From Alloalcanivorax dieselolei B5 (GTDB lineage Bacteria > Pseudomonadota > Gammaproteobacteria > Pseudomonadales > Alcanivoracaceae): 64,000 nucleotides of DNA. The stretch is taken from contig NC_018691.1 of the NCBI RefSeq assembly GCF_000300005.1, positions 1,860,001-1,924,000 of the forward strand, written 5' to 3'. A program made the position numbers and the translations under genes. The notes beneath the pieces are model-generated. The model was not told the DNA's origin. It saw only the letters and a program-made list of their open reading frames with translations, and made no database searches. Each line of letters opens with the position of its first letter. Position 1 is the first letter of the stretch. This document shows, piece after piece, positions 13,699-45,859 of the stretch.

Positions 13699-15075
13699 AT
13701 GGCTGCTGTTTTATCCGACACTTTGTTCCGAGCCTACGATATTCGCGGCATCTTCGAGGATACATTGACGGTATCCGCCGCGGAGCTGATCGGTCAGGCC
13801 ATCGGTTCAGAGGTTATTGAGAGAGGGGGACATTGTGTTGCCGTGGCGCGCGATGGCCGTCTTTCTTCCCCCACTTTACTGGATGCCCTTGCCAAGGGGC
13901 TGCAAGCGAGCGGCTGTAATGTGGTGGATGTGGGGCTGGTTCCCACGCCGGTACTTTACTTTGCCACCTACCATTTCGAGGATGCGGACTCCGGCGTGAT
14001 GATTACCGGCAGCCATAACCCTCCGGACTATAATGGTTTCAAAATCGTCATCAGAGGCACGACGCTTTCCGGTGACGCCATTCAGGCGCTGAAGGCCCGT
14101 ATCCAACAACGGAATTTCTCGGAAGGGCACGGGACGCGGGAGCAACGCGAAATTCTTCCCGCTTACCTGGCGGCGCTGAAGGCGCGCCACCAACTGGCGC
14201 GCCCGATGAAGGTGGTGGTGGACTGCGGCAACGGTGCCGCGGGGGTGTTGGCACCGGAAGCGATCGCCTCCCTTGGCTGCGAAGTCATACCGCTCTATGC
14301 GGAAGTCGACGGCACTTTCCCCAATCATCATCCCGATCCCGGCGATATTGAAACCCTCAAAGACCTTATTGATACTGTTCGCCGGGAAGACGCCGATTTG
14401 GGCCTGGCCTTTGACGGTGATGGCGACCGGTTGGGAGTGGTGTTGCCGGATGGAAAGGTGGTTTACCCGGACGTCCTGTTGATGGCTCTGGCCGAGGATC
14501 TGGTCAGCCGGGTGCCGGGTGCCAAGATCATCTTTGACGTCAAATGTACCGGTGCTCTGTTTGATATTATCCGCAATGCGGGCGGCGAACCGGAGATGTG
14601 GCGTACCGGCCACTCCCTGATCAAGGCACGGATGAAAGAAACAGGTGCGCTGCTCGCGGGTGAAATGAGCGGCCATATCTTCTTCGCCGAAGACTGGTAC
14701 GGCTTTGACGACGCCACCGTTGCCGCCGCCCGTATCCTCCGTATCCTAAGCCATCATGACGGCGACGCCGTCAGTTTCTTCGATCGCTACCCGAAACTTT
14801 GCACCACCCCGGAAATCACCATCCCCGTCACCGAGGAAACCAAGTTCGCCATAGTCGAATACATGCAGAAGCACGCCGACCTCGGCGAGGGCAAACGCAC
14901 GGTGATCGATGGCGTGCGTATGGATTATGAGGATGGCTGGGGGTTGTGTCGGGCCTCCAATACGTCGCCTAAGTTGGTGACTCGGTATGAGGCGGTGGAT
15001 GAAATGATATTAGCCCGTATCAGGGCCTGCTTTGAAAGAGCCATCAAAAATGCCGTCAAAATGGCTGAAATATAG
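13699..15075 (+). CDS. algC: phosphomannomutase/phosphoglucomutase
   Basis: A 458-residue alpha-D-phosphohexomutase that moves phosphate between C1 and C6 of mannose or glucose. The four expected landmarks are present: FRAYDIRG at the N-terminus, the phosphoserine loop TGSHNPPDYNG with Ser105, the magnesium loop DGDGDRLG and the sugar-specificity loop GEMSGHIFF. The C-terminal phosphate-binding segment contains RASNTSPKLVTRYE. It follows pgi by 12 bases and completes a galU/ugd-like/pgi/algC unit for glucose-1-phosphate and mannose-1-phosphate supply. The name follows the Pseudomonas AlgC family; a manB/pgm label would also fit. Confidence 0.93.
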   Translation: MAAVLSDTLFRAYDIRGIFEDTLTVSAAELIGQAIGSEVIERGGHCVAVARDGRLSSPTLLDALAKGLQASGCNVVDVGLVPTPVLYFATYHFEDADSGVMITGSHNPPDYNGFKIVIRGTTLSGDAIQALKARIQQRNFSEGHGTREQREILPAYLAALKARHQLARPMKVVVDCGNGAAGVLAPEAIASLGCEVIPLYAEVDGTFPNHHPDPGDIETLKDLIDTVRREDADLGLAFDGDGDRLGVVLPDGKVVYPDVLLMALAEDLVSRVPGAKIIFDVKCTGALFDIIRNAGGEPEMWRTGHSLIKARMKETGALLAGEMSGHIFFAEDWYGFDDATVAAARILRILSHHDGDAVSFFDRYPKLCTTPEITIPVTEETKFAIVEYMQKHADLGEGKRTVIDGVRMDYEDGWGLCRASNTSPKLVTRYEAVDEMILARIRACFERAIKNAVKMAEI

Positions 15076-15231
15076 GCCGGATGGTGGCAATAACAAGGTC
15101 AGCTGAGTGATGGTCTAAGATGTGTTCTGTTTCCGTCCAATTCCACAGGGGCATTTCTGTGGAGGGTGCTGAAAATATCAACAAGGTTGGTAATACAGCA
15201 TGGTCCCAATGAATCACGAGGTTCGCAATAA

Positions 15232-16398
15232 ATGAAAATCACGGTAGTAGGCATCGGGTATGTTGGACTTTCTATGGCTGTGCTGCTTGCCCGTCACAAT
15301 CAGGTGTGTGCACTAGACATTGATGCTGAAAAAGTGAGGATGATCGAGCAGAGACAGGCTCCTATCGCAGATGAGGAGATCCAGCGCTTTCTGGATACTG
15401 AGCAGCTTAACCTCTCCGCCACGACAAATGTAGCAGCAGCCTATGACGGTGCGGATTTCATTGTCGTGGCAACACCGACTGACTACGACAGTAATACCGA
15501 TTGCTTTGATACTCGCTCTGTGGAAGAGGTAGTGCAGGATGCCAAATCGATTAATCCGAATGCGACCATCATCATAAAGTCCACAGTGCCTGTCGGTTTT
15601 ACCCGAATGTTAAGAGAAAAGCTCGATCACGAAATGATCATTTTCTCTCCGGAGTTTCTACGTGAAGGCAAGGCTCTGCACGATAACCTTTATCCGTCCC
15701 GCATAGTGATCGGCGATAAATCTTCCGCTGCACGCCGCTTTTGTGAGTTGCTCCAGAAAGGAGCGCTAAAAGACGATGTGCCTGTCGTATTCTGCGAGTC
15801 CACGGAGGCGGAGGCCATAAAATTATTCGCGAATACGTATCTGGCTATGCGAGTTGCTTATTTTAATGAGCTGGATACCTATTCGGAAACGCATGGCCTG
15901 GATGCTGGAAAGGTTATTGAAGGGGTATGTCTGGATCAGCGAATTGGAAATTATTACAATAATCCGTCATTTGGGTACGGTGGGTATTGCTTGCCGAAAG
16001 ATACTAGGCAGCTGAGAGCGAATTATCGGGATGTGCCGAACAATATCATTGGCGCTATTGTCGATGCAAATGACACTCGAAAAGATTACATTGCGAACGC
16101 TGTTGTTGCACGAGCGCCTTCAGTAGTTGGAATTTTTCGCTTGGTTATGAAGGCTGGCTCGGACAACTATCGTTCGTCAGCCGTTCAAGGGGTCATGAGG
16201 CGAATCAAGGATAAGGGTGTCAAGGTGGTGATTTATGAGCCAATGCTAGATGGTGACGATTTCCTGGGCTGCCCCATCATCCGAGATTTGGGGGAGTTCA
16301 AGGAAATTTCTTCTATTATTCTATCTAATCGACACTCTCAATCATTGTCGGATGTAAGAGATAAAGTTTATACCCGAGACTTGTTCGATCGAGACTGA
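15232..16398 (+). CDS. ugd: UDP-glucose 6-dehydrogenase
   Basis: A 388-residue cytoplasmic enzyme oxidising UDP-glucose to UDP-glucuronate with two NAD. The Rossmann motif [10 protein letters not shown] is intact, the substrate-handling segments KSTVPVGFT and [11 protein letters not shown] are present, and the catalytic Cys253 lies in [10 protein letters not shown]. It is the short form typical of capsule loci. Base composition and codon use are visibly AT-richer than the upstream galU-algC block, so this gene probably marks the left end of an acquired polysaccharide island. UDP-glucuronate may be the uronic-acid donor for the exported glycan. The paralogue at 10766 lacks these catalytic features. 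Confidence 0.95.
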
Positions 16399-16493
16399 TC
16401 CGGCCTTGGCCTGAGGGAGATGGATGATGCAGGTGCCGGAATGGCAGCGGTCTGAGCTTGGTGTAGCCATAAAAGTAATCAGAATGGTTTCCA

Positions 16494-17969
16494 ATGAGCG
16501 AGAATAGTGCTTTTAAAATCGACCATGACCTCCTGCTCAAGCCGAATGATGCGGCTCAATGGGCGCGGGATGCAATGGCGGCTCGCCGCTGGGAGTTGGC
16601 GGCCCGCCGTTGGGCCACGTTGCGCGCAGCCTATCCCGATTATCCTCCAGTATGGATTCAAGGTGCGATCGCTCATCGTCATCGGGGACGCCACCTGGAA
16701 GCTGAGACATTGCTGGAGGAGGCGCGCCGTCGCTTTGCGGACCATCCAGGGGGTTGGGTGCAAGGTGCCAGGACGGCTCTGGCAGCGGGTGATTTGAAAA
16801 AGGCGGAAGAATTACTGGAGGTGGCGCGGGCGCGATTTCCTGACAAGGCTCCGGTATGGCTGTGCAGTTCTGACCTGGCTTGGGCCCAGGGGAACGTTGA
16901 TATCGCGCTGGAACACAACCAATATGCCCGTAGCCGTTTTCCCGATGACCCGGGTGGCCACAGTCAATACGCGGAAATGGCTATGAAAAGCGGTGATTGG
17001 GAAACGGCCCGCGAGCGCTGGACTGAAGTGCGGGCGCTTTTCCCCGATTGGCCGGCAGGCTACAGACGGGCCGCTGAGGCAGAGGAGAATCTTGGGCGAT
17101 CCCGTGAGGCACGCCGCCTGCGTTTGGCTGAAGCGCATGGTGCGGAATGGCTGGAGGAACTTGAATCCGAGGAGGCCAAGCCGATTTCTCCTCCCCAACG
17201 CCGAGATTGGCGCAACTTTGTCGATTTGGTTTGGACCAAGGCTCGCCTGAATTTGAAATCCGAGGCAAACCGTAATCACCTGCGCTATATGTGGTGGATT
17301 TTGGACCCGTTGCTGTATATGGCCGTGTTTTACGTGGTATTCGGTCTGCTCCTGCAGCGCGGCGGTGAAGGCTTTGTGGCGTACCTCCTCACCGGTTTGG
17401 TGCCGTTCCAGTGGTTTTCCAAAACGCTCAACCAGACGGCGACTTCCATTGTTGCCGGCAAGGGGCTAATGCACAAAGTGCGGATTTCCCCGCTGTTTTT
17501 CCCGCTGGTGGGAATTGTGCAGAATAGCGGCAAACAGCTGCTGGTGTTTGCCATGCTGGGGATTTTTCTGGTGTTGTATGGCCTTCCGCCAACCATTCAC
17601 TGGCTGGCGTTGCTGCCGATCGTGTTGGTACAGATACTGCTGATGGTGGTGGTGTGCTGCCTGGTGGCCATGGTGATTCCCTTCATTCGTGATTTGAGTA
17701 ATCTGGTGCCCACGGGAATTCAGTTTGTGATGTTTGCCAGTGGTATTTTTTACACCGTGGATCGCATACCGACTCAGTGGCAAACGTTGTTTTTCAGTAA
17801 TCCGGTAGCGAATCTGCTGTATCAATACCGGCAGGTTCTGGTGGAAAACCAATGGCCGGAATGGCGTATGCTCAGTTGGCTAACACTGGGTTTGTTGGTG
17901 GGTTTGGGCGTGGTGCTATGGATGTATCGCCGCCTGGAACCGGTTTTCCCCAGAGTGGTGATTGAGTGA
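16494..17969 (+). CDS. ABC-2 polysaccharide export permease with N-terminal TPR domain
   Basis: A 491-residue fusion. Residues about 20-225 are helical repeats of TPR type: successive units share W/A-A-x-R-W and A-x-x-R-F-P-D patterns (for example RRWATLRAAYPDYPP, ARARFPDKAP, ARSRFPDDPG, VRALFPDWPA). Residues about 240-491 are an ABC-2 permease of the Wzm/KpsM class, with about six helices and the cytoplasmic entry segment RNHLRYMWWILDPLL. It exports a lipid-linked glycan across the inner membrane with the ATPase encoded next, whose start overlaps this stop. Wzm/KpsM proteins normally lack a TPR domain; here it might dock glycosyltransferases or the ATPase. No strong ribosome site is visible at the ATG. 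Confidence 0.88.
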   Translation: MSENSAFKIDHDLLLKPNDAAQWARDAMAARRWELAARRWATLRAAYPDYPPVWIQGAIAHRHRGRHLEAETLLEEARRRFADHPGGWVQGARTALAAGDLKKAEELLEVARARFPDKAPVWLCSSDLAWAQGNVDIALEHNQYARSRFPDDPGGHSQYAEMAMKSGDWETARERWTEVRALFPDWPAGYRRAAEAEENLGRSREARRLRLAEAHGAEWLEELESEEAKPISPPQRRDWRNFVDLVWTKARLNLKSEANRNHLRYMWWILDPLLYMAVFYVVFGLLLQRGGEGFVAYLLTGLVPFQWFSKTLNQTATSIVAGKGLMHKVRISPLFFPLVGIVQNSGKQLLVFAMLGIFLVLYGLPPTIHWLALLPIVLVQILLMVVVCCLVAMVIPFIRDLSNLVPTGIQFVMFASGIFYTVDRIPTQWQTLFFSNPVANLLYQYRQVLVENQWPEWRMLSWLTLGLLVGLGVVLWMYRRLEPVFPRVVIE

Positions 17970-18607
17970 TGTCGGGTCAGAAAGACGACGTCATTATCTC
18001 GTTGCGTGATGTGGGTGTGCGTTTCAAGCGCAGAAAGGGCTTGTTCCGGAAACCGGACTACTATCAAGCCCTGGAGGGCATCAGTTTCGACATTTATCGG
18101 GGCGAAACCCTGGGCATCGTCGGCCGCAATGGCGCTGGTAAATCGACCCTGCTGAAAGTGATTGCGGGCATCATCCAGCCAGACAGTGGTGAAGTGATTA
18201 ACCATGGTGTCACCGCATCGCTGCTGACCTTGCAGGCGGGGTTTGATGGCGAGCTGCCAGGCACCGATAACGCTATTGTCGGCGGCATGCTGATGGGCTA
18301 CACCCGCAAGCAGGTGGAGGCTCGAATGGACGACATCCGGGAGTTTTCCGAACTGGGCGACTTTATGGAGCAGCCTGTGAAAACCTACTCCTCGGGAATG
18401 CGCTCGCGGCTGGGTTTCTCGGTGGCGATGTATCTGTCACCGGACGTGCTGCTGCTGGATGAAGTGCTGAGCGTTGGTGACAAGGAGTTCAAACAAAAAG
18501 CCGAAGCCGAAATGATGAAAAAAATTCATTCTGATCAGACGGTGTTACTGGTGTCTCACTCAGAAAGCCAGGTGGAACGGGTTTGTGAGAGAAAGATTGC
18601 TCTTTAA
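17969..18607 (+). CDS. ABC transporter ATP-binding protein, Wzt/KpsT class
   Basis: A 212-residue ATPase paired with the TPR-permease; its ATG overlaps the permease stop. It has Walker A GRNGAGKSTLLK, signature YSSGMRSRLGFS, Walker B VLLLDEVLSVGD and the switch histidine in VSHSE. It is short and ends right after the nucleotide-binding domain, so it lacks the C-terminal carbohydrate-binding module found in Wzt proteins that read a glycan's terminal cap. It therefore resembles KpsT, the capsule exporter, more than O-antigen Wzt. It is followed by glycosyltransferases in the same direction. Confidence 0.92.
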   Translation: MSGQKDDVIISLRDVGVRFKRRKGLFRKPDYYQALEGISFDIYRGETLGIVGRNGAGKSTLLKVIAGIIQPDSGEVINHGVTASLLTLQAGFDGELPGTDNAIVGGMLMGYTRKQVEARMDDIREFSELGDFMEQPVKTYSSGMRSRLGFSVAMYLSPDVLLLDEVLSVGDKEFKQKAEAEMMKKIHSDQTVLLVSHSESQVERVCERKIAL

Positions 18608-18625
18608 TTGGGGGGATGAAGGCTC

Positions 18626-19600
18626 ATGAATTGCAGAGTGGCCGTGGTCATTCCCGCCCATAATGAATGTGTGCGTCTGGTTGAAGCGGTGAAATCCATC
18701 GTCGATTTCAATCAGGCTAAGGCAAAGTTTTATATCGTTGACGATGCTTCCAGTGATGGTACGAAAGAGGCGATTGAGTCTTACCTAAAGGAAAATAATA
18801 TTCCCCACCAAGTAAGCCGTAACGAAGCGGGGAAGGGTGCGGGATTCTGTCGTAATATTGCCTTTGCCAATGTCACCGAGGAGTATGTGCTGTTTCTTGA
18901 TGCGGATGATTTCCTCTATCCCGGCATGTTGGATAAAGCCGTTGAGCGGGCTAATGAGAGTGGGGCACAGGTCGTCCTGACTGAGTATGAGCGAGTGCAT
19001 GATGCCAATGACAAAAAATTGGGCATGAATCCGCTGGATGAAGGCATTCTGTCACGGCTGACCAGCGCATTTGGACAATCCGCCTTTGCCATGAAGGATG
19101 CGGCGTATGCACTGGAAATTGCCAATTACCCCTGGAATAAGTTGCAGCGTACGGACTACTGCAAGGAAATCGGCCTGCGATTTTCGTCGACGCCAGTGCA
19201 TAATGATGTCTTTGCCCATTGGCTGATTTTGATGAATGCCACGCGGGTTGCCGTGCTGAATGCGTCATTCTGCGGCCACCGGGTTTCTTTGTACTCCAAT
19301 CAGATTACCAATATCGCCGATGAGCGACGCATGGCCATGCTTGATGTCTTTGCTGAGCTGGATGATTATTTTGTGCGGCATCCAGAACTAAAAGAGCATT
19401 TTTATCATATTTACACTTCCTTCAAGATCAGACTGTTTCATTGGGGGATGTCGAAAATTGATAATGCTCACCAGGAAATGTTCAAGGACGGCTTCTGTAG
19501 AACGCTTGAGTCGATGACGAGCCGTGATTTCTTTGATTTGTCGAAAAAAGTGCCCAATATAGCATTGGATGTGCTTCGTTATCGTATGCGCCAGATGTAA
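18626..19600 (+). CDS. family 2 glycosyltransferase
   Basis: A 324-residue GT-A enzyme. The N-terminal 110 residues are a standard GT2 core: VAVVIPAHNE, the nucleotide-binding IVDDASSDGT, and the metal-binding DxD in LFLDADDFLYPG. The remainder, to residue 324, is helical and family-specific, so donor and acceptor cannot be assigned. It probably adds a sugar to the glycan exported by the upstream ABC pair. It is 18 bases downstream of the ATPase and 22 bases upstream of a second GT2 gene, so the set looks like one transcript. Confidence 0.88.
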   Translation: MNCRVAVVIPAHNECVRLVEAVKSIVDFNQAKAKFYIVDDASSDGTKEAIESYLKENNIPHQVSRNEAGKGAGFCRNIAFANVTEEYVLFLDADDFLYPGMLDKAVERANESGAQVVLTEYERVHDANDKKLGMNPLDEGILSRLTSAFGQSAFAMKDAAYALEIANYPWNKLQRTDYCKEIGLRFSSTPVHNDVFAHWLILMNATRVAVLNASFCGHRVSLYSNQITNIADERRMAMLDVFAELDDYFVRHPELKEHFYHIYTSFKIRLFHWGMSKIDNAHQEMFKDGFCRTLESMTSRDFFDLSKKVPNIALDVLRYRMRQM

Positions 19601-19622
19601 TTCTGGTCTTTCGAGGAAGACT

Positions 19623-20960
19623 ATGATTTCCGTAATTGTTACTACCTATAATATTGAAAAATATATTGAAGAATGTCTGAATAGTGTGCTGGCGCAGACC
19701 TATCTGGATTTGGAAATTATCGTTGTTGATGACGGATCCAATGACAGCACACCAGGCTTGATCGCGTCGATAGCGAAACGAGATGCGCGTATCAAACCAG
19801 TTCTGATGCCAGAGAATACGCCCGGCGGGGTAGCGGTCGCAGCGAATGTGGGCATGAGTCATGCTACTGGCGAATACATCGGTTTTGTGGATGGGGACGA
19901 CTGGTGCGAACCTTATATGTTCGAGAAGCTGGTTACAGTATTGGAAGCCACGGATTCACAAGTGGCTATTGGGGATTTCAAGAACTACGATGAGGTGTCG
20001 GGTTCTTATTATGACCCCGCTGATAAGCGTCTTTGGCTGAAAGGGCTTCCTCTTGGAGAAGCGCTAGAGGGAGTGGCCAATAAAAAAGCACTATTGGCGT
20101 TTAATCCTGTTCCGTGGCGGAAACTCTACCGGCGTGACTTTCTTGAAGCTAACCAGATTCGTTTTCCGGAAGGGGACTATTTTTATGAAGATAACCCGTT
20201 CCACTGGTTTTGCCTGACGAAAGGCGAGCGCTTTGTCCTGATTCCAGATTGTCTTTGTTATCACCGTATGAACCGGGTTGGCCAAACCATGTCCAGCGGT
20301 GACAAGCGTTTGCTGGCAATGTACGAGCATCATCGCACTATCTTTACCTGGCTAACCGAGAATGATCTCTACGAAACCTATAAAGAAGACATTATTCTTT
20401 GGGTGGTTAACCATAGCTGCTGGATTTATGACGCGATCAGGGACGAGTTCAAGCCTGATGTGATTCGTCGTCTTGGTGAAGAGCTTGGTGAGCATGATTC
20501 CGCGTTGGCGTCCGAGCTGCTGGGTAATCCGGACAGAATGGGCAGTAAAGGGCGTAACCTGGCAGCTGAGGCGATGGGCGATAATTTTCGGCCATCGGGA
20601 GGCTGGCCTGTCTCTCGCGGTGTAGGAACTAAATTTCCACTGGCAGCTGAGGCGCTGCGCTATTGTCAAGAATTCGGCATTGGCGCGACGGTGCGTAAGG
20701 TTGTTGAATACCTTTACCGTCGTATGCCCATGCCCGTTCGCAAGGTAATCGGAAAACTACGTAGTAACTCGGAAGATACTTCTATTGGAATGAGGAGCAG
20801 TACAAAGAAAGAGCTGCGGGATATCAGAGTTCAACTGGAAACCACCAAGCTGTTAACAATGCTTGGTGATGAGAAAGTCGCGCGTGTTGAAAAAAAGGTT
20901 GATCAACTGCAAAGCGATATTGATGAGATCAAGGTTTTATTGAGTCAAAAAAGAGATTGA
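19623..20960 (+). CDS. family 2 glycosyltransferase with C-terminal coiled coil
   Basis: A 445-residue protein. The GT2 core covers about residues 1-115 (ISVIVTTYNIEKYIEEC, IIVVDDGSNDSTPG, GFVDGDDWCEP with the DxD). The last 50 residues, rich in K/E/L heptads from about KKELRDIRVQLETTK to DEIKVLLSQKRD, should form a coiled coil that may hold it in a complex with other assembly enzymes. The ATG at 19623 follows GAGGAAG; an upstream in-frame start lies within the previous gene. The sugar specificity is unknown. Confidence 0.87.
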   Translation: MISVIVTTYNIEKYIEECLNSVLAQTYLDLEIIVVDDGSNDSTPGLIASIAKRDARIKPVLMPENTPGGVAVAANVGMSHATGEYIGFVDGDDWCEPYMFEKLVTVLEATDSQVAIGDFKNYDEVSGSYYDPADKRLWLKGLPLGEALEGVANKKALLAFNPVPWRKLYRRDFLEANQIRFPEGDYFYEDNPFHWFCLTKGERFVLIPDCLCYHRMNRVGQTMSSGDKRLLAMYEHHRTIFTWLTENDLYETYKEDIILWVVNHSCWIYDAIRDEFKPDVIRRLGEELGEHDSALASELLGNPDRMGSKGRNLAAEAMGDNFRPSGGWPVSRGVGTKFPLAAEALRYCQEFGIGATVRKVVEYLYRRMPMPVRKVIGKLRSNSEDTSIGMRSSTKKELRDIRVQLETTKLLTMLGDEKVARVEKKVDQLQSDIDEIKVLLSQKRD

Positions 20961-20967
20961 TGGCTGA

Positions 20968-22143
<1,176 letters not shown>

Positions 22144-22161
22144 TTTTTTGTTGAGTTAACT

Positions 22162-23115
22162 ATGCCTTCTCTGGTTGCTGTTGTTGTTACCTACAATCGT
22201 CTTGATAAACTGAAAAAGGTGATAACGCAGTTGTTGCTCGAACCCTGTGACGCGGTGGTGGTCGTGGATAACGGTTCCCGTGATGGCTCCAGAGAATGGT
22301 TGAAAGAGCAGGGCGATTACCACACCCTCCTGGACGTGGTGCATACCGAGAGAAACCTGGGAGGCGCTGGTGGCTTTGAGTTGGGTTTTCGCCGAGCTTT
22401 TGACGTTCATCAGGCGGACTGGCTCGTCTGTATGGACGATGATGCCCGGCCAGAGCCCGGCGCTTTGGCACAGTTCCTCTCAGAAAATCTTGACGGCATT
22501 GATGGTGCGGCGGCAGCGGTGTACTACCCGGATGGAGAAGTCTGTGAGATGAACCGCCCCACGCGGAACCCGTTCTGGCATTTTTCGCTGTTTGTAAAAA
22601 CACTGTTTTCCGGAAGCCAGGCATTTCATGTCTCAAATGAAGACTATAAAAGCTCTGGCAGTCGTGGGATTGATGTGACTTCGTTTGTCGGCTTTTTCGT
22701 GCGCAGGAGCGTGGTGGAAGAGTGTGGTTACCCGGATGGCCGCTTGTTCATTTATGGTGATGATGTTTTATACACCATGACATTGTCGGCGGCAGGTAAA
22801 TCTCTGGCTTTTCTCCCTTCTGTTCGTTTTACCCACGAATGTTCTGCGCCAGACAGGAATCACGAGCTATTCAAGCCGCTTTGGAAAGGCTATTACGCTT
22901 ACCGCAACCGGATGCTGACGTACCGGAAAGCCATGGGTTTGCTGTTTTGGTTTTTGCTGCCGTTGTTTCTGATCAAGTGGTCACTGGATTCGCGCCATTA
23001 CCCATCGCCACGACAGCACTTTCGCGTGATGGTCCGTGCGGTTAGAGATGGGTTGGCAGGGCGCTTTTCCGTGTCTCATGAAGCGGTGCTTGATCTGATG
23101 GATAAGTCCGGCTAG
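22162..23115 (+). CDS. family 2 glycosyltransferase, probable galactofuranosyltransferase
   Basis: A 317-residue GT2 enzyme: VAVVVTYNRLDKL at the start, VVVDNGSRDGS for the nucleotide and a DDD metal motif in VCMDDDARPEPGAL. The layout of NLGGAGGFELGF and a hydrophobic pair near residues 255-275 is like rhamnosyl/galactofuranosyltransferases of the WbbL/GlfT kind. Its position 18 bases after glf supports galactofuranose as the donor, but this is inference. Its TAG stop overlaps the stop of the convergent minus-strand gene within a CTAG palindrome at 23112-23115, marking the meeting point of the two arms of the island. Confidence 0.85.
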   Translation: MPSLVAVVVTYNRLDKLKKVITQLLLEPCDAVVVVDNGSRDGSREWLKEQGDYHTLLDVVHTERNLGGAGGFELGFRRAFDVHQADWLVCMDDDARPEPGALAQFLSENLDGIDGAAAAVYYPDGEVCEMNRPTRNPFWHFSLFVKTLFSGSQAFHVSNEDYKSSGSRGIDVTSFVGFFVRRSVVEECGYPDGRLFIYGDDVLYTMTLSAAGKSLAFLPSVRFTHECSAPDRNHELFKPLWKGYYAYRNRMLTYRKAMGLLFWFLLPLFLIKWSLDSRHYPSPRQHFRVMVRAVRDGLAGRFSVSHEAVLDLMDKSG

Positions 23116-24203
23116 ATAACATCGTTTCGGCTGGTTCTGTATTCGGCAAGAACACGATTGCGGCGCTCGCGCTCTCTTTGGGCGCATTCATTGAATTTCT
23201 CCAATTGTCTGGCGTTCGCATCTTTTGGCAAGACATCCAGTTGAGATAACGCGATGCCTATATGGTTTTGGATAGCTTCAACATCATCGGCGCGGACGCA
23301 ATAACTGGAAAGATACCAGGCCAGAAATCGCAACCGAAATGAATGATCAACCTCGCTGGAGCCGAGTACCGCGGCTGGAATGTCATCCGGGTGAGAAATG
23401 GAGCGCGTTGCTATCTGGAAATCGGACCCTCCAAAGGTTATTACGTGAGCACCATGCACCAGTGCTTCACATAGCACTCCGGAATTACAGCCCATTACAC
23501 AGAATGCTTTTTCGATTAAGGAGTGAATGGAATGATCCACTACATGCACATTGGAGAAGTCCCGTTCGAGATGGGTGAGAGCAACTTCAACTTGCTCGGA
23601 ACGACAAAGGGGGTGTCGTTTGATTACAATGTCTTTTCCAATAGAAGCCGCGAATTCCGCTGCCGCTTGTGCCACATCCAGTTGGTCAAGTTGACTCAAA
23701 TCAGCAACGGGATCTCCAACCGTTTGTAGTGGGATAAAGATATAGTCATCCGGCAAATATCCCTGTACTGATTGTGGCTGGGAGTATTTTGACAGGTTTT
23801 TCTCAATAAGTTGTTGTTTTATTTCATTTACTAAATTTTGAGCTTGCTCTAAAGGAAATCGTTCTATTTCTTCAAGAAAAGAAGTAGGGTTCAGAGCAAG
23901 CTCGGAAAAACCAGAGAAACCCAGACGGTCAATGGTGTAGTAAGGGGGAATGTAGGATTCTTTAACCCTTAATATATTGGCGCTTGAGGGGCCGCGGGAG
24001 TGATAGCTGATAACAAGCTGCCCGTGCTCATATATCCGCTCTGCATCATCTGCACCGAATGGCACAGGAACCGGACGGACGGAAACAGAGAGCTGTGAAA
24101 GTGCAATCAAGATGGAGGAAAAAAGATGCCGATGCCTTTCCCCATCCAACGGGTTCTGCAGGCGTGAGACCGGGACTTCAAGAATGACATCGGAATCTAA
24201 CAT
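23112..24203 (-). CDS. Capsule_synth-like glycosyltransferase-type protein
   Basis: A 363-residue protein whose second half resembles the Capsule_synth (KpsC/KpsS) GT-B fold: VIKRHPLCRSE followed by VVDHSIHSLIEKAFCVMGC and NSGVLCEALVHGAHVITFG, the usual pattern around the donor site. The first half shows no recognised motif. It may add Kdo or another sugar to the glycan or its lipid anchor. The downstream neighbour on this strand is the convergent GT2 gene; upstream, 23 bases away, is a large fusion protein that also carries a KpsC-like domain. The ATG at 24203 has a GAGG site about ten bases upstream. Moderately sure of family, unsure of substrate. Confidence 0.7.
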   Translation of the reverse strand: MLDSDVILEVPVSRLQNPLDGERHRHLFSSILIALSQLSVSVRPVPVPFGADDAERIYEHGQLVISYHSRGPSSANILRVKESYIPPYYTIDRLGFSGFSELALNPTSFLEEIERFPLEQAQNLVNEIKQQLIEKNLSKYSQPQSVQGYLPDDYIFIPLQTVGDPVADLSQLDQLDVAQAAAEFAASIGKDIVIKRHPLCRSEQVEVALTHLERDFSNVHVVDHSIHSLIEKAFCVMGCNSGVLCEALVHGAHVITFGGSDFQIATRSISHPDDIPAAVLGSSEVDHSFRLRFLAWYLSSYCVRADDVEAIQNHIGIALSQLDVLPKDANARQLEKFNECAQRERERRNRVLAEYRTSRNDVI

Positions 24204-24226
24204 TGCTAAACCTCAACGGAGAGCGA

Positions 24227-27200
24227 TTACCGAAGTTCCCCACACGGGAACATTAAACGGCCAATAAAGCGTCGTACAGGGTTGTGCATGGTTCGGGCAA
24301 ATCGAATCGGGTCATCTTCAATGGCTTTGGATAAATGCGCTCGGCCAGAAAGCCGGGCCACTTTGCTCATCAATCGCACCCAAATACGGAAAACCTGAAA
24401 TGGCCCCATAGGGTCCGTGTCGGGATACAGTAATTTTGTCATTACCGGGCGGCGTTGAGACCAGTTTTTTCGTGCAAATTGAGCTGGCTCCTTCAAGAAC
24501 TCACGCTGTAGCTCTGGTGTTGCGCGTTTCGCAAAAAGCAGTGCGAGGAGGGGGGTCAAGAGCCAGTAGCGCCAGCCGAAAAGCCCATAATTGACAATCT
24601 TGAGCGATGCTAGGCTTGTTTGTGAAGACATAACGAGTCTTTCCGATTGCGATGGGGCTGTATCGAGCGGCTTGGCTCTTTCATAAGCATCTGCAATCAA
24701 CACTATTTCTTCAGGATAAATACCGGTAGTTTCAGGGCGCGGTGCTGCGGAACCGAATAGTGGGCCTTCATTGCCTTTAAAGTATGTTGTGGCCACTTCC
24801 TGGTTAATGTATCTGACGTCGTCCATGATTTCGGCAGCCAATTGATCGGATAGAACCCAGGGTTTGGGCATTGCCAATCCACGTTTAGTTCTCCACCGCT
24901 GTAGGCCTTGGGTGACTTCTTCAATGAAGTCGAAGTAGGCATTACGATCTCGGAAGGGGCGACTATTAAAAAGCCGTATCAGTTCCACATGAGCTGTCGA
25001 CAACCGAGCGGAATTGCGATCATCCTCCGGAGGCTCTGGTAGATCCAGAAGGGCAGGAAGGTTGATGGTTTTTGCAAAGTCTGCCAGAAGGTCATTATCG
25101 TGAAGGCGCTCTTTTTCGAATACTCGTACCTTCACGTTTTCCTGACCAATTGCATCTGCCCATGCGGAAAGAGGGATGCGATAATCAAGCAGACGCCTCG
25201 TTTCAGGGCGCTTCAGCCATTCGGAAAACGGGATGTCCACACGTCCCACTGCGCCACCTGCGACGAACTCGCAATACTGCGCATTGGCCCATTCATCCTG
25301 GCGTCTTAGATAAGCGACCATCTCTACCGGGTAGCCTGCAAAGTATTCTGCAATGCGGTGTGCTTTCTCATTCAGGAAGAAGGCTTCGCTAGAGAGTACA
25401 ACTGTATGGATCTTGCCTGACATCAATGTCAAACCGGCTTCGATATGCCTTAGCACGTCGGGTTGATTATTGACGGCGGCTTGGATGACGTCACTATGCC
25501 CAGCTTGCTTATGGGGGCGGGTCGGTTGCCAGAATAGGCCAACTTCAGGAAACCACACACCTGCACGAAGTAATGCGGGGCGGTTCTTTTCTAGATAATG
25601 CTGAAGATAGGTGCTACCTGTTTTGGTCGCACCTATGTGGATCACAATGCGTGCCTTCTTAGTGATTGAGCTTGCCTTATGAGTGAGTGTTGTCACCTGT
25701 TCATTGCGGGCATAAGTACTCAGTGCATTCTGGAGGTTGGCAATTCGAGCGTTTTCTGGTTCTGCAAGCTGAAAATCGTAGAGTTGATCTTGTTGTACGG
25801 GTTGGCGATTCGCGGCTATAGCAAGTAAATCAAAATGGCGAGCCAATAGGGCTGATGTGGCGAGTTGATATACCCCGAGCGATAAGAATTTCTTACTAAT
25901 ATTAATCGGTGTGCGAGAAATGTCGGTGGCTAGGAAGTCCAGGCTCTCTAATGCTTTAGCTAGTCGCTCCAGGTAGACTTCGGGGTTTTCGCATTCACGT
26001 ATAAGCGTAGAGTAAAAGAAACCAAAAAACGAGAAGTGGATGAACTGTGATATCTGAAATTTAAGATGCTCACGATATTCACTAGCAGGATCAGCTGCGC
26101 CATGCTCTTTTAGCAAAGTGGCGATTTGTTCGATATTTCGTGTGAAGTTTTCGACGTCCTTCATGTTTTTGGAACGCCGGGCTGTAGAGTTCTGTCGAAT
26201 GCGATACATCGTGCCCAAGTTGGTCGTTAGGGTAAGATGTCTTGCGCTCAGCAAAGCCTTAAGCAAAAATGCCCTCTCTTCCCACTGTGTTGTGACAAAG
26301 TGGATATTATTATCTTTAAGGAAAGTGCGGCGATAAAGCCACATCCAGAAGTGCCGATTTTGAAGAATTTCAGGGCTATTCTTGAAATTTGTCTTGCTGA
26401 TGTTAGTAGTAAAAAAAGCCTCGCTCTTATCCTCAATGACTCTAATTAATTCATCGTTCTTATCAAATACCGCTTCTCCCGCTTTTTTTGCACGAGTCAT
26501 ATCCGCATTATTTTTATCGGCAGCAGTAATTATCTTTTCAAGAAAGACTGGATCAACAAGCCAGTCATCTGCATCAATAAACCAGATGTATTCGCCTTGC
26601 GAAGCCTCTATCCCACGATTTCGGGCGAACCCCTGCCCAACATTTTCACTCAATACGATAGGGCGAATTCGAGGGTCTTGGGCCGCGAGTCTATCAATGA
26701 TTGCCTGACTGCCATCAGGGCTGCAGTCATTGACAGGGATGATTTCAATTTCGCGGAGTGATTGGTTCTGAATAGAGGTAAGGCATTCCTCAATGTAATC
26801 TTCCACACCATACACGGGTATGATGATTGAGACTCTGGGTGGAGAAGCCGCCTCTACTTCCGTCGGGGGAAGAGTATAAGGGCGATGAGCCTCGATATAG
26901 TCAAGGGCGTCCTCAATTTGGCTTGGGGCTTCACACTCTGGTACATGGTAAATCGTGTACCAGATATAAAAATAATGGAAAAGTTCTTCCAGAGAGCGCT
27001 GCCGATGACGGTGCGGAATTTTCTGGCGGTCGTCCGTCAATCCCCAGCCCGCATAGAAAGGAGCACCAAAGCAGACCACTTCCTTGCCAGCAAACAAAGC
27101 TTCGAGCCCCATTTGGCTAGTTCCAACATAAACTTTGTCTACCAAATCAAAAATGCAGTAGGGATTGACCGGCTCACGTAGCAAGCGGACCCGCCCGGAA

Positions 27201-28003
27201 GATGACAAATGCGAGTAGTATCCCGATCGCTTGCTCTTTTCCCAACTGCTATCGGGGTGAGTCTTGACCAGTATTTCCGCATCAGGGTTTTCCTGGATCG
27301 CGGCAACGAGCATCTTTTCGAATGCCGCTTCATCGGCTTTGCCGTAGATTGTCGAGGCATCGGCGAAGGCCTGGTCACATACCAATACCCGGCGTGTATA
27401 GCCTTCTGTCATTGCCGGTGCGTGCATGGGTTGAGCATTATATTTACTGATACGACGCTCAACGATACGTTGAATCAGGCCACGGGCGCGTGTCAGTTCT
27501 TCTGTACTTGGTTGCTCTTCGCTGTTAAGTTTCTGGATAATTCTGTTAGGGTAATCCGCCATAAAATAATGCGCGATGTCATCATAGACATACCCTAAGC
27601 AAGCATATTCCGGCTTGCCCTCTCTGAAGCTATGTGACCAACTATGGGTAGTAGCCAAAAAGCCTGCTTCAAATAGTATTATTTCAGCAGTCTCAGGGAT
27701 ATTATTAAAAATCTTGACAGCACCTTTGTGTGAATATTGGTCGTCTCGATATATTGTCCCTGACACAAAATGTAACGCGCAGTCTCCTACATCAGGTTCA
27801 TCGACTGCAGTTATTCTTGGGAATATCATAGGAAGATTAGACCCAAAATTTGACTCTATATTTTTTCTGACATAGCTAAAAGCCACAGGCTTTTGGGAAG
27901 CCGATAAAACGTAGTCCCGAATATCACGATCAGAATCGAACTCTTTTTGCTTTATGTCCAGGAGTTCAGCAAAACGCTGGAATGCAGTCTGGTTGTTTGT
28001 CAT
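24227..28003 (-). CDS. three-domain KpsC-like / GT2 / sulfotransferase fusion
   Basis: A 1258-residue protein with three catalytic-looking domains. Residues about 1-385 match the KpsC beta-Kdo transferase fold: LVKTHP at 245-250, then GTSQMGLEALFAGKEVVCFG and PFYAGWGLTDD around 294-325. Residues about 390-640 are a GT2 domain (VSIIIPVYGVEDYIEEC, NDCSPDGS, and the DxD in WFIDADDW near 477). Residues about 785-1090 form a sulfotransferase: a PAPS-type P-loop HIGATKTGSTYLQ at 789-801, a 3'-phosphate-like segment VVLSSEAFF and a later YLRRQDEW. The last 130 residues are basic and unassigned, with a hydrophobic patch near 1145-1157. It implies a sulfated glycan and co-localised sugar and sulfate transfer. 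It is 4 bases from the preceding minus-strand gene. Confidence 0.85.
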   Translation of the reverse strand: MTNNQTAFQRFAELLDIKQKEFDSDRDIRDYVLSASQKPVAFSYVRKNIESNFGSNLPMIFPRITAVDEPDVGDCALHFVSGTIYRDDQYSHKGAVKIFNNIPETAEIILFEAGFLATTHSWSHSFREGKPEYACLGYVYDDIAHYFMADYPNRIIQKLNSEEQPSTEELTRARGLIQRIVERRISKYNAQPMHAPAMTEGYTRRVLVCDQAFADASTIYGKADEAAFEKMLVAAIQENPDAEILVKTHPDSSWEKSKRSGYYSHLSSSGRVRLLREPVNPYCIFDLVDKVYVGTSQMGLEALFAGKEVVCFGAPFYAGWGLTDDRQKIPHRHRQRSLEELFHYFYIWYTIYHVPECEAPSQIEDALDYIEAHRPYTLPPTEVEAASPPRVSIIIPVYGVEDYIEECLTSIQNQSLREIEIIPVNDCSPDGSQAIIDRLAAQDPRIRPIVLSENVGQGFARNRGIEASQGEYIWFIDADDWLVDPVFLEKIITAADKNNADMTRAKKAGEAVFDKNDELIRVIEDKSEAFFTTNISKTNFKNSPEILQNRHFWMWLYRRTFLKDNNIHFVTTQWEERAFLLKALLSARHLTLTTNLGTMYRIRQNSTARRSKNMKDVENFTRNIEQIATLLKEHGAADPASEYREHLKFQISQFIHFSFFGFFYSTLIRECENPEVYLERLAKALESLDFLATDISRTPINISKKFLSLGVYQLATSALLARHFDLLAIAANRQPVQQDQLYDFQLAEPENARIANLQNALSTYARNEQVTTLTHKASSITKKARIVIHIGATKTGSTYLQHYLEKNRPALLRAGVWFPEVGLFWQPTRPHKQAGHSDVIQAAVNNQPDVLRHIEAGLTLMSGKIHTVVLSSEAFFLNEKAHRIAEYFAGYPVEMVAYLRRQDEWANAQYCEFVAGGAVGRVDIPFSEWLKRPETRRLLDYRIPLSAWADAIGQENVKVRVFEKERLHDNDLLADFAKTINLPALLDLPEPPEDDRNSARLSTAHVELIRLFNSRPFRDRNAYFDFIEEVTQGLQRWRTKRGLAMPKPWVLSDQLAAEIMDDVRYINQEVATTYFKGNEGPLFGSAAPRPETTGIYPEEIVLIADAYERAKPLDTAPSQSERLVMSSQTSLASLKIVNYGLFGWRYWLLTPLLALLFAKRATPELQREFLKEPAQFARKNWSQRRPVMTKLLYPDTDPMGPFQVFRIWVRLMSKVARLSGRAHLSKAIEDDPIRFARTMHNPVRRFIGRLMFPCGELR

Positions 28004-28007
28004 AACA

Positions 28008-29924
28008 TTAAGCCTTTTTGTTGCCAGCGTCGCTAAGCTGAGCCTTCCCCCATAAAAACTCTGAAAGTCGCACTTCTGCTATATCTTTTTTACTAGAATT
28101 ACAGAAAATTGGACCTATTTCATAAGCTTCAGAAAAAATCTCTTCCCACGCTGTATGAATCACTGTGTTGCTAAAGCGCGCAAGAAATGTCTCACGAGCT
28201 GCCTGCCCCATTTGCTCACGCAACTCTCGACTTGCCATTAGTTTGTGCAGCTCCACGGGTAGATTATCGGCACCGTCTCTTCCTTGTGCCAAAAGACCAT
28301 TTTCTCCATGGATGATTTGCTCGTTAACACCGTTACATACTTCATAACCAACGGCCGGTATGCCATGAGCGAGCGCCTCGCAGAGGGTCAGGGGAAATCC
28401 CTCAAAAAAAGACGGTATCACGAAGATATCTGCTTCATGATAAAAGGCGTAAGGGTCTTCCTGAGCCCCCAGAAACTCGATGGCATTGGCAACACCAAGT
28501 CTCTGCGCTTTTTCTCTGAGGGTTCTCTCCTCAGGGCCTCCCCCGACGATACGAAGCTTCCAATCTGGAAAATCGCGAGCCAGCTTAGCGAAGGCCTCTA
28601 CTAAGCGAGAGGTATTCTTGCGTGGCACAAGACGTGCAACGGTGAGCAGATATTTAACCTCTTTTTCTTTACCGGGTTTCGCCAGAACCTCAGGTTCTCG
28701 TATGGTATTCGGCACGACGCGCATCCGGGACTGAAGAAAATCAGGCAGCGTGGGCACAAAGGCATTGACGAGGGTATGTACCAACGTGGCACCGGAGAAC
28801 GCCATCACTCTCTCGTCCGCTGGAAAAGTTCCTATCCAGTCAGGAAATCTTGGATCAATATGCTCCGAAAGCACAATCGGCAACCCAACCTTCTGCGCAC
28901 AGCGTACGTAGCGCAAGAAGGTGCGGTTCATATGCAGTCCGACAAGCAGATCGAGATTGCGGCTGGCAACTTCAACTACCATCATCTGATCCGCTCTTTC
29001 ATCATCATGCTCAGAAAGGTGGACAAGCTCAATGCTATCGTCGAGCGGCCAGAGGGATGGGCCATTGTTATTGTCGAAGGTGAAGATGACTACGCTGTGG
29101 CCTCGCCCAGCCATTGCATTGGCCATCATCTGGCCGACATTTTCAGTGCCCCCGCGTCCCTGAGTGATCCAGGGTATGAAAAAACCAATTCGCATTTTGG
29201 GCACTGGGCCGGGAGAAGCTAGCATCAACCGTGATACCTCTATTGATTTGGGAGCACAGTTCCACTTCCAATTGACAGATGGTAAGTCACCATTGAAACC
29301 TTGTTTGACTTCTAACCCTTTTGGAAAGCGCCCTGCCTTGGTCAGTGTTTCCAGATCACCATTTGCGCGGCGTAGCTCTTCTTTAGGTAGAGGCCCAGGT
29401 CCCCGCTGAGCCATGCCGAAAATGTTATAGCCGTGACGCACGAAACGTCCATTTGTAAGGTCAAAGCCCGCATTGGCCAGGACATACATCAGGGTTCCGA
29501 TATTCCAGCCTGTGTTGACATGACCCCCGACTACCTCGTGTTTGAAGGGCGGCACAGCGATGAATAGCCAGCCGTCGGGCTTCAGGATTCTGCGGATTTC
29601 GGCCAGCGCTCTGCCGGTATCGGATACATGCTCAAGTACATGGGCACACCAGACTGCATCCATTGAGGCGTCGTCAATCGCGTCCATGTTGCAGATATCA
29701 AGGTCGGAGACGATATGGAGTTCTTTCGGTAGGGCTTCATCGTTTTTCTGGTAGGCATCCATATCGAAGCCGGTGGCTGTAACCACCCAGCCAACTTCCA
29801 GGAAGCGCCGGGCGGCGAGCCCCGAGCCGGTTCCAATATCAATAATGCAGCCTTTTGACGGGAGGCTTGTGAGGGCTTCCTCGATAAGATCGTCTTGGCC
29901 TGGAATGGATGTTGTGACCTGCAC
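28008..29924 (-). CDS. SAM methyltransferase / GT4 glycosyltransferase fusion
   Basis: A 638-residue bifunctional protein. Residues about 20-170 are a class I methyltransferase: IDIGTGSGLAARRFL near 28-42 binds SAM, and WCAHVLEHVSD plus LKPDGWLFIAVPP follow. Residues about 243-600 are a GT-B family 4 glycosyltransferase: MRIGFFIPWITQGRGGTE at its start, VARLVPRKN mid-way, and the donor-binding PSFFEGFPLTLCEALAHG. It probably adds a sugar and methylates the same chain. The start is a GTG at 29924 preceded by CGGAG; an ATG two bases further out is in another frame. It lies 4 bases before the 1258-residue fusion on the same transcript. Confidence 0.87.
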   Translation of the reverse strand: MQVTTSIPGQDDLIEEALTSLPSKGCIIDIGTGSGLAARRFLEVGWVVTATGFDMDAYQKNDEALPKELHIVSDLDICNMDAIDDASMDAVWCAHVLEHVSDTGRALAEIRRILKPDGWLFIAVPPFKHEVVGGHVNTGWNIGTLMYVLANAGFDLTNGRFVRHGYNIFGMAQRGPGPLPKEELRRANGDLETLTKAGRFPKGLEVKQGFNGDLPSVNWKWNCAPKSIEVSRLMLASPGPVPKMRIGFFIPWITQGRGGTENVGQMMANAMAGRGHSVVIFTFDNNNGPSLWPLDDSIELVHLSEHDDERADQMMVVEVASRNLDLLVGLHMNRTFLRYVRCAQKVGLPIVLSEHIDPRFPDWIGTFPADERVMAFSGATLVHTLVNAFVPTLPDFLQSRMRVVPNTIREPEVLAKPGKEKEVKYLLTVARLVPRKNTSRLVEAFAKLARDFPDWKLRIVGGGPEERTLREKAQRLGVANAIEFLGAQEDPYAFYHEADIFVIPSFFEGFPLTLCEALAHGIPAVGYEVCNGVNEQIIHGENGLLAQGRDGADNLPVELHKLMASRELREQMGQAARETFLARFSNTVIHTAWEEIFSEAYEIGPIFCNSSKKDIAEVRLSEFLWGKAQLSDAGNKKA

Positions 29925-37241: not shown

Positions 37242-40200
37242 ATGTCTAGATACAGGAAGGCTTTGGGGATTTTTTTTGCACTTTTAATGTGCATGGCCGG
37301 TTCGGCATCCGCATCGATTTCTCTGAATAAGCCTTTATATCACGTCTATTATGGCGATATAGACAGTGTGGAGTACGGGCTGGATGGGCATCTGGATATT
37401 CTCCTTCGAGCACGCCAGCAGTTCATCATGCTGACCGTGGGAATTTCGTTCCCCGTTCCGTTTGATTCCGGCTACCAAGATATTCTTCTCTGTGGCACCA
37501 GCAGTGGCGACTTCGTACCCTGCACCATGACACAGGGCGCGGCCATCCCTGCCCAACCTTCCAATTTGTTTGATGGATTGATCGGTGATTTGGATGGGGA
37601 CGGCATTGCCGACCTTTTCCTGCAGTCAAAAGACCCCAATATAAATAGCCTCTTTCTGAGCAATAACAGCGATGGCACGCTGTCTCTGAAAGACCAGTTC
37701 CTGAAGATTGGAGATCACTGGGTATCTGGAGGTGGTGAGGTCTCGATCAGGGACAATCCCCACGATAGCGGGAAAGTCTTGTTTCTTGATGATTCCCGTT
37801 ACTCGCAGTGGAATGGCAGCAGCTTCTCCGAACCCAGAAGCGTCGATCTTAATACTTCCCTGATCGGTTCCTCCGCATCCTCCTTCTCCGTTGATCTCGG
37901 CCAGGCTGAGTTCAGCCTGCCCATCCAGGTCCCCAAAGGCGGTGCCGGTGTCGACCCCTCGTTCTCGATCCATTACTCCAGCGGTTCCGGATACGGCCAG
38001 GCGGGCATGGGGTTCAGTATTGCCGGCGTTTCCGCCATCGAGCGCTGTGGTTATAGTTTCGAACGGGATGGTGCTGTATCGGGAGTAAAAGGAAACAATG
38101 GCGACTTGCTTTGCCTCGACGGCAATCGATTGATCCTCGTCTCCGGCCAGTACTGGGGTAACGGCTCAATCTATCAGACCGAGGCGGAATCGGATCGTAA
38201 GATCGTCTACAGCCAGGGTGGCTTTACCGTCCATGAGAAGAACGGCGATGTTCTGTATTACGGCAGCCGGGCGGATAGTCGTATCACTGGCCGTCTGTCC
38301 GGCAACGCGGTTGGCCGCTGGGCGTTGGATGGCGTGGAAGACCGCTTGGGGTATGGATATCGGGTGACGTACCAGCCCGGCTCCGCTGGCTATTTCCCCA
38401 AGAAGATCGAATATACGGTCAAGGACGGCCAGGCCGGTAGCGGCGATGCCGAGGTGGAATTCACCTATGAGCCGGATCCCTATGGCTGGCGTATCGCGGT
38501 GCTGGGCAAGGTGTATAAAGTCGGGCTTCGTCTGGCTCGTGTCACCTCTCGGAGTCATGGCTCCGTGGCGAGACAGTATCACTTCCGCTATGAAACCAGC
38601 CAGGCCACCAAACGCTCGCTATTGACGCGCTTCTTTGAATGCGATGCCTCGGTGCGTTGTTTCAAACCGATCGCCTTGAACTGGAAAAAAGAGCGTCAGC
38701 CGGACTTTTCCAAGGCGACCTATACCCGTTTCCCCGGTTCGCCCACCAATGAGCATGTCTTTGAGGAGGGGTTGCATTACCCCGGTTTTGCACGCTGGGT
38801 GGATATCAATAGGGATAAAAAGGATGACTATTGCCGTATATCGGGTCTCAACAGTACCTCCACGGCTCCGGTTGAAATTATCTGCTATCTGAATAACGGC
38901 AGCGGATCGTTTAATTCCCAGATAAAAATTGACGCGGGATTGGTGGGTACCCGTTTGGCTGTGGATACAGAATATCCCGTCAAGGACTGGAATTGGCATA
39001 ACTGGAACGTGGATCCCTCCTGGATTGACATCAACGACGATGGTTTGGTGGACCTTTGCTACTCCACACTGCAGGGCGGTAATGACCGGCTGACGTGCCG
39101 GTTGAATAAACCCAATCTTCAGAATGCCTTCAAGGAGCTTATTACCCACGATATTTCGCGCCCCGTCGAGAAGCTGTATGTTGGCCCCCGTTCCTGGATG
39201 GACTTCAACGGTAATGGCAAGATCGACTATTGCTATACCTATTTGAAAGGCGACAAGAAGTACATTCGCTGTCTGGTGCAGTCAGTCAACGGGTTCACGT
39301 TCTCGGAGGCCTTCACCAAGGAAATCACCGATATGGCCGGCTACTGGGCCGATGTCAACGGTGATGGGCTGCCGGACTACTGTATTACCACCAAAACCAA
39401 AGTCACTTGTCATACCAATCATCAAGGCCAGAGCCTGGATGGTGGAACTTGGGCCAAGACCGGAGCCCATTTTCAAACCGATGAACAGGACTGGCCCTAC
39501 AAAGGCAGCTCTACCCGGTATTTCAGCGCCCTGTTTACCGACTTCACGGGCAACGGTTTTTCCGATTTCTGCCGCATCTATTGGACCAAGGAAGGCGGAA
39601 ATGATGGTTATCGCGCGTCCTGCCTGGAATCTCTTGGAGACAGTTGGGGCAATGAAATTGTCTCCGCTTTCCTACCGGTCCATCAGAGGTTTGACGGTGA
39701 CATGGAGTCGATGCCGGAAGCCACTCAATTCATGGACGTCAACCAGGACGGCCGCATGGACTGGTGTGTGGAAAACAGCCTTCCCACCGCCTATACAGAT
39801 ACACACCTGACCTGTTTTATTTCCACGCCAGACGGATTCGGTACGTCTCCGGTGAAGTATCGTCTGCCCTATCTTGGATCAAACATTCGCGGTATGCGGG
39901 ACATCAATCGGGGCTGGGCGGACATCAATGGTGATGGCCACGATGCCTATTGCGCCCTGTATTGGAAGTCTCTAGTCCCCCGAAATCGCGGCATGGCCTG
40001 CTTCGGTCCCCAGGTGCCGGAGCAAGGAGACCTGCTCACCGGCGTCACCAACGGGTTTGGGTTGGAATACGGTGTTACCTACAAAGATATCGCTGATCCG
40101 TCGGTGTACGCCTATGGAGACCCCACCGGCAGTCACGGCCAGGTCTTCCTGACCAAAGGCATGAACGTGGTGTCGGAACTGGAGGCCTCCGACGGCATCG

Positions 40201-45760: not shown

Positions 45761-45859
45761 CGGGCTCGGTCAACTCGGGGCAGGGTCTTGTTTGCCTTCC
45801 GAAGAAGGGATGCTGCTGGAGTTTTCGTATAGATAAAGCAATGAGTGGAGGAGCCAAGG

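Follow-up and report, generated by a model that had tools for sequence, protein, structure and literature searches.

A protein joining KpsC-like, GT2 and sulfotransferase-fold modules in Alloalcanivorax dieselolei B5 and its relatives in other bacteria

Can the transfer of an acidic sugar, the addition of a second sugar and sulfation be placed on one polypeptide chain? This question is raised by a gene of Alloalcanivorax dieselolei B5 (the host in the following), which lies in a stretch of 64,000 nucleotides (contig NC_018691.1, positions 1,860,001 to 1,924,000; the window, from whose first letter all positions are counted) and encodes a fusion protein of 1258 residues (Table 1). An earlier note on this DNA had read the frame as three distinct catalytic modules, namely a KpsC-like transferase, a glycosyltransferase (GT) of family GT2 and a sulfotransferase. 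Our analysis confirmed that this trimodular architecture is real: the hallmark residues of all three modules are kept and the predicted folds agree. We consider it rather probable that the protein is a three-site enzyme that would assemble a sulfated, probably 3-deoxy-D-manno-oct-2-ulosonic acid (Kdo)-containing glycan segment, a proposal that extends to its donors, its acceptor, the order of the steps and a glycan shared by all three sites.

Conserved residues and predicted folds of the three modules

Conservation was counted in 18 aligned copies, comprising the window copy and those of 17 loci; a second strain of Yoonia maritima (L011) and a broken copy (L021) were left out, and two of the aligned copies (L019 and L023) stop at residue 941. 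Invariant positions are found in each module: Q211, D215 and H249-P250 in the first, D477, D479, D480, E575 and E576 in the second, and K794, T795, G796, E873, R900 and R901 in the third. Folds were checked (VIA) on a model of residues 1-1110.

The profile check of the N-terminal part against Capsule_synth gave a match, and the predicted structure has a modified GT-B fold of the KpsC/GT107 type. Acceptor-site residues sought for KpsC/GT107 enzymes were Trp42, Glu66 and Asp67; a candidate acceptor-site residue of the fusion, Glu112, is kept in 16 of the 18 copies, with Asp in the other 2, and lies in a region outside the sequence profile match. The QxxxD and HP motifs are complete in every copy, and D215 aligns to Asp160 of Escherichia coli KpsC. 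Variants of KpsC at this residue showed a Kdo adduct on Asp160, in a study that also addresses the role of the QxxxD motif (PMC10148158). KpsC itself contains two GT107 modules and serves in capsule linker synthesis, whereas the fusion has a single Capsule_synth match that is followed by GT2 and sulfotransferase parts; the tandem two-module layout of KpsC proper was not found.

For the second module, both the GT-A fold in the predicted structure and the DxD motif in the sequence were recovered, with all three aspartates of DADD unchanged in 18 of 18 copies. It is 18-21% identical to TarS and TarP, GT2 enzymes of Staphylococcus aureus, where the cell envelope and the partners of the enzyme differ.

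Searches of Pfam, NCBIfam and PDB sequences with the third part gave nothing useful, and it was fold comparison of the predicted structure alone that identified a sulfotransferase fold. The Pfam families Sulfotransfer_1 and Sulfotransfer_3 had no match to the window copy at E ≤ 10, with the curated cut-off not reached, and Sulfotransfer_3 matched 2 of 18 members (best E 0.019). The assignment in the earlier note was supported at the level of the fold, and sulfate-activation genes lie near some copies (see below); membership in the Pfam sulfotransferase families was not borne out. The P-loop GxxKTG, of the 5'-phosphosulfate-binding type with lysine, is invariant in all 18 copies, as is R900, the arginine of the R-x7-S 3'-phosphate site. 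R-x7-S is the usual 3'-phosphate motif for 3'-phosphoadenosine 5'-phosphosulfate (PAPS), in which Ser is the usual residue, though it is not known to be indispensable. At 10-16% identity, the module resembles the heparan sulfate sulfotransferases NDST1 and 3-OST and the Alicyclobacillus structure 3rnl; unlike these, it is fused to glycosyltransferases and lacks a Pfam sulfotransferase match.

Standalone relatives of the third module also exist. A profile search matched 23 of 145 genomes of the order, including the host, and HIGxxKTGS/T, LSSE and YLRRQD-like blocks recur in most of the relatives that were aligned; a search of viral contigs with the third part found no relative. Only one of 10 tested standalone relatives, L051, exceeds the Pfam sulfotransferase cut-off, and there the match is a second domain (residues 389-618) behind the fusion-related part (residues 6-330). 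This frame of 662 aa (L051:505-2490) carries two sulfotransferase-like parts per chain, a third-module-like domain and then Pfam Sulfotransfer_3.

Recurrence of the fusion and exchange of acceptor halves

Six short peptide patterns, run once against genome contigs, located the fusion at at least 19 loci, in Paracoccus, Pseudooceanicola, Maritimibacter, Celeribacter, Ferirhizobium, Yoonia, Loktanella, Palleronia, Bauldia, Sinorhizobium, Microbulbifer and Halomonas; two of these loci (L011 and L012) are from strains of one species. The three-part protein is thus shared by many bacteria of marine and soil habitats. It also occurs on plasmids of Qingshengfaniella and Cereibacter, and two public plasmid records label it merely 'glycosyltransferase'. 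Two fusion genes 3.7 kb apart (14992-18795 and 22471-26175) occur on the Qingshengfaniella plasmid (L079), and the genome of Paracoccus litorisediminis has two on separate contigs (L006, L082). On the Cereibacter azotoformans plasmid (L080), glf, a KpsF/GutQ-type gene, the fusion and an ATP-binding cassette (ABC) exporter lie within ~27 kb, interspersed with many insertion sequence (IS) elements. A gene for 782 aa near glf on a Leisingera aquaemixtae plasmid (WP_259966063, L081:7983-10331) matches query residues 391-974 at about 27% identity; it covers the GT2 and sulfotransferase parts and has no KpsC-like match.

The distribution points to horizontal spread, because the fusion gene has a low G+C content (0.476, compared with 0.574 for the window and 0.626 for uvrB), its KpsC donor half is more alike between genera than UvrB, and host kin list no counterpart. 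The window copy shares 90% identity in this half with Microbulbifer and 74% with Palleronia, while UvrB reaches 74% and 60%, respectively. Among the matches listed for 12 genomes of the genus, 23 of the family and 21 of the order, none spans more than 290 of the 1258 residues.

We then compared close copies half by half, placing the boundaries according to what is generally known of GT-A and GT-B folds. A Maritimibacter metagenome-assembled genome (MAG) holds two copies (L019 and L023, 8001-10826 each) whose KpsC donor halves share 94% identity and whose GT2 donor halves share 85%; for the first half of the sulfotransferase (residues 766-941; the remainder is cut off) the value is 93%, whereas the KpsC acceptor half (45%), the GT2 acceptor half (35%) and the following helices (37%) diverge. 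The window and Microbulbifer (L018) copies agree in 90% of the KpsC donor half, 75% of its acceptor half and 82% of the GT2 donor half, compared with 35% of the GT2 acceptor half and 30% of the helices; the sulfotransferase halves (74% and 64%) and the tail (63%) are intermediate. Similarly close pairs show no dip in the GT2 acceptor half (L013/L014, 81%; L016/L017, 77%). Because close copies diverge sharply in the acceptor-facing stretches while donor and sulfotransferase parts stay alike, we conclude that the former have been replaced and the latter retained, a mosaic that points to recombination. In identity matrices of 16 full-length copies, the sulfotransferase part correlated with the KpsC part at r 0.82 and with the GT2 part at r 0.49.

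Gene neighbourhood and sulfate supply

In the host, the fusion belongs to a minus-strand run in the order sugar-phosphate transferase, methyltransferase-GT4, fusion and second Capsule_synth protein, with the methyltransferase-GT4 gene ending 4 bp ahead of the fusion ATG (Table 1). The facing run holds two uridine diphosphate (UDP)-sugar-dehydrogenase-type proteins, an ABC exporter, GT2s and a UDP-galactopyranose mutase. Relatives of the GT4 gene lie directly upstream on the same strand at 14 of 19 loci and downstream on the opposite strand at two more; at the Sinorhizobium terangae locus (L020), 0.65 kb and a small frame separate it from the fusion. Relatives of the second Capsule_synth protein follow the fusion at 5 of 19 loci, and the host protein matched no solved structure by sequence.

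Table 1. Positions of the fusion gene, its modules and motifs, and neighbouring genes in the window
Feature	Position	Strand	Remark
Three-module fusion protein, 1258 aa	24227..28003	-	
KpsC-N-like (GT107-type) module, residues 39-378	26870..27889	-	
QAFAD (QxxxD motif), predicted nucleophile D215 (= Asp160 of E. coli KpsC)	27359..27373	-	alignment
KTHP (HP motif, H249)	27254..27265	-	
PFYAGWGLTDD block, residues 315-325	27029..27061	-	
GT2 module with helical extension, TarS/TarP-like, about residues 389-735	25799..26839	-	
DADD, residues 477-480	26564..26575	-	D477, D479, D480 invariant
Sulfotransferase-fold module, residues about 778-1087	24743..25672	-	
P-loop GATKTGST, residues 791-798	25610..25633	-	5'-phosphosulfate-binding type
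RRQDEWANA, residues 900-908	25280..25306	-	R900 invariant; 908 is Ala here
C-terminal tail, residues 1111-1258, two short repeats (KEPAQFARKN, EDDPIRFARTM)	24230..24673	-	
Downstream gene, 363 aa, weak Capsule_synth	23112..24203	-	carries QTVGD and KRHP
Upstream gene, 638 aa, methyltransferase + GT4	28008..29924	-	
Polyprenyl-phosphate sugar-1-phosphate transferase type protein, 436 aa	30000..31310	-	
ABC exporter: permease fused to TPR repeats (491 aa), ATPase (213 aa)	16494..18607	+	
Facing operon: GT2, GT2, UDP-galactopyranose mutase, GlfT1-like GT2	18626..23115	+	

The permease frame of the exporter (16494-17969) is an ABC-2 exporter permease with an N-terminal TPR array, which seemed unusual for a Wzm/KpsM-type permease. 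Further along the window, a frame of 2403 aa (37242-44453) with FG-GAP, SpvB, TcdB-middle and RHS repeat matches has the look of an RHS/toxin-complex type gene, and IS200-like (45845-46705) and DDE transposase (46908-48389) genes lie just past it.

The only Capsule_synth matches in the host genome are the fusion and its neighbour. As this search revealed neither a KpsC nor a KpsS apart from them, the fusion is not an addition to the usual phospholipid/Kdo pathway in the host, and the reading in the earlier note is not quite right on this point. A general replacement of KpsC by the fusion was rejected, as 14 of 18 other genomes also hold KpsC-sized frames (660-904 aa with repeated Capsule_synth matches, read from open frames); these lie on a contig other than that of the fusion or, in one genome, at a distance of 2.8 Mb from it.

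Each of the 18 genomes behind the loci encodes a kinase for adenosine 5'-phosphosulfate (APS), and the host has one such gene; both plasmid records lack it. Its presence alone says little, because many bacteria have it, among them 11 of 14 control genomes. Its position is more informative: in S. terangae, Capsule_synth, PF01507, CysNC-like and inositol-phosphatase family genes, GT4, a small frame and the fusion form one run. The PF01507 and inositol-phosphatase family genes are CysD-like and CysQ-like by position, APS kinase is included, and the Capsule_synth protein is KpsC-like (E 2.8e-48 to 6mgb). APS kinase is separated from the fusion by ~9 kb in a Halomonas MAG, by 13 kb in Microbulbifer and by 41 kb in Pseudooceanicola; in the host the distance is 59 kb, and the gene adjoins a CitMHS/Na-sulphate-type permease. 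Random placement would give 0.16 genomes within 15 kb and 0.64 within 62 kb, compared with 3 and 5 seen; as these limits were picked after the positions were known, the chance values are indicative only.

Proposed function and competing explanations

In the route that we propose, the KpsC-N-type module would act as a retaining enzyme and, judged by fold and motif, move an ulosonic acid, most likely Kdo, from cytidine monophosphate (CMP)-Kdo via a covalent intermediate on Asp215. The TarS/TarP-like module would attach a second sugar from a nucleotide sugar, and the module resembling heparan sulfate sulfotransferases would pass sulfate from PAPS to the growing segment, as fold, motifs and gene context suggest. 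The product would be a surface glycan, either capsule or O-polysaccharide; the host cluster includes a gene of the polyprenyl-phosphate sugar transferase type. The tail repeats the motif (E/D)P..FAR twice, and some relatives have similar (R/N/K)P..FF.D motifs. It is a possible membrane anchor, comparable to the C-terminal amphipathic helices of KrkA that are thought to bind the membrane (PMC12887879), and may keep the fusion at the site of lipid-linked glycan synthesis before export by the ABC transporter.

KrkA is the closest parallel: a Kdo-transferase module and a ribosyltransferase in one long chain (1113 aa) make the repeat of the E. coli K13 capsule (PMC12887879). The fusion shares with it an N-terminal Kdo-type module joined to a second GT. 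It differs in that the Kdo module of KrkA is GT140 and not GT107-like and its second activity is ribosyl transfer; the main text of that report has no word starting with 'sulf'. By this analogy, synthesis of a repeat unit seems somewhat more likely than that of a one-off linker or cap. We put forward tentatively that the fusion is a polymerase with its own sulfotransferase, which would add Kdo, second sugar and sulfate in turn so that each repeat is sulfated during synthesis; the three donor-using parts would be fixed and the acceptor-facing halves swapped as the machine moves between alpha- and gammaproteobacteria, so that one enzyme design would yield many different sulfated glycans of the cell surface.

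Several observations weigh against the proposed enzyme. The sequence profile left the acceptor half of the first module uncovered, and in the long model the pLDDT (predicted local distance difference test) is <50 at residues 212-221, which include D215, and at 252-261. Position 908, which judged by spacing should hold the serine of R-x7-S, is Ala in 8 of 18 copies, including the window copy, and Ser in 10. Only 5 of 19 genomes have sulfate-activation genes close to the fusion; in the other 14, the host counted among the 19, APS kinase is >62 kb away or on another contig. Finally, the host's sole APS kinase, 59 kb off, could serve assimilation or another sulfotransferase: the genome holds one further Pfam sulfotransferase gene, some 120 kb away from the fusion, that could draw on the same PAPS, and Sulfotransfer_1 has no match in the host genome.

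The most durable alternative, which we hold to be unlikely though worth weighing, is that the product is not the repeat but a lone sulfated Kdo-sugar unit, which as linker, cap or side branch would prime or end different glycans. The L019/L023 mosaic would fit one unit placed on different acceptors, several other GTs of the host cluster could make the repeat, and WbbB attaches a single terminal beta-Kdo (PMC12887879). However, exchange of acceptor halves could equally alter linkages inside a repeat, and the number of units per chain is not fixed by it. There is a small chance that the first module uses another CMP-activated acid sugar instead of Kdo. Enzymes of the KpsC kind are able to accept other ulosonic acids: KpsS1 of Acinetobacter baumannii, a KpsC relative, uses pseudaminic acid (PMC12887879). 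Slimmer still is the chance that the third module has kept its fold and lost its sulfotransferase role, binding a nucleotide or only holding the protein together. Ala908, the missing Pfam membership and the distant APS kinases would agree with such a loss, but the P-loop Lys and Thr, E873 and R900 are invariant, CysD/CysNC/CysQ-like genes stand beside the fusion in S. terangae, and residues 766-941 are 93% identical between L019 and L023 despite differing acceptor parts. A concatenation of separate genes by assembly error is refuted, since the fusion forms one uninterrupted frame at 16 of the 19 loci (of the other three, two are cut and one is broken), the two plasmids likewise carry it, and the host sequence is one contig.

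The earlier note had also suggested an undescribed route, with sulfotransferases foreign to the KpsC system. Our searches of the open-access literature, with most subscription journals outside coverage, turned up no description of a chain that links a KpsC-type module with a sulfotransferase. Sulfotransferase genes near kps genes have been reported. Cobetia marina KMM 1449 has its own sulfotransferase gene beside kps genes, in a sulfated polysaccharide cluster with ABC export and PAPS genes; sulfotransferase and kpsSC are separate genes, and the available text mentions no fusion (PMC11766843). Individual sulfotransferase genes beside kps genes are also described for E. coli clusters of group 3 (PMC10433991). 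In K5, kfiB is termed a putative sulfotransferase gene, and E. coli capsule chains of >1,100 aa combine GT99-like and ribofuranosyltransferase parts (PMC13171606). In the sulfated-capsule clusters that we compared, glycosyltransferases and sulfotransferases are listed as separate genes (PMC11766843, PMC11641403). Each module is of a known kind; what is new is the architecture, which is well conserved and shows an unusual exchange pattern.

Taken together, carriers of the fusion may rely on one machine both to assemble a sugar chain of the cell surface and to sulfate it. One conserved chain with both activities would make it possible to study directly how sulfation keeps step with chain growth. 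It would also allow genomes to be screened for sulfated Kdo-type glycans overlooked by Pfam-based annotation, and sulfated glycans of defined structure could be made with it as a natural enzyme.
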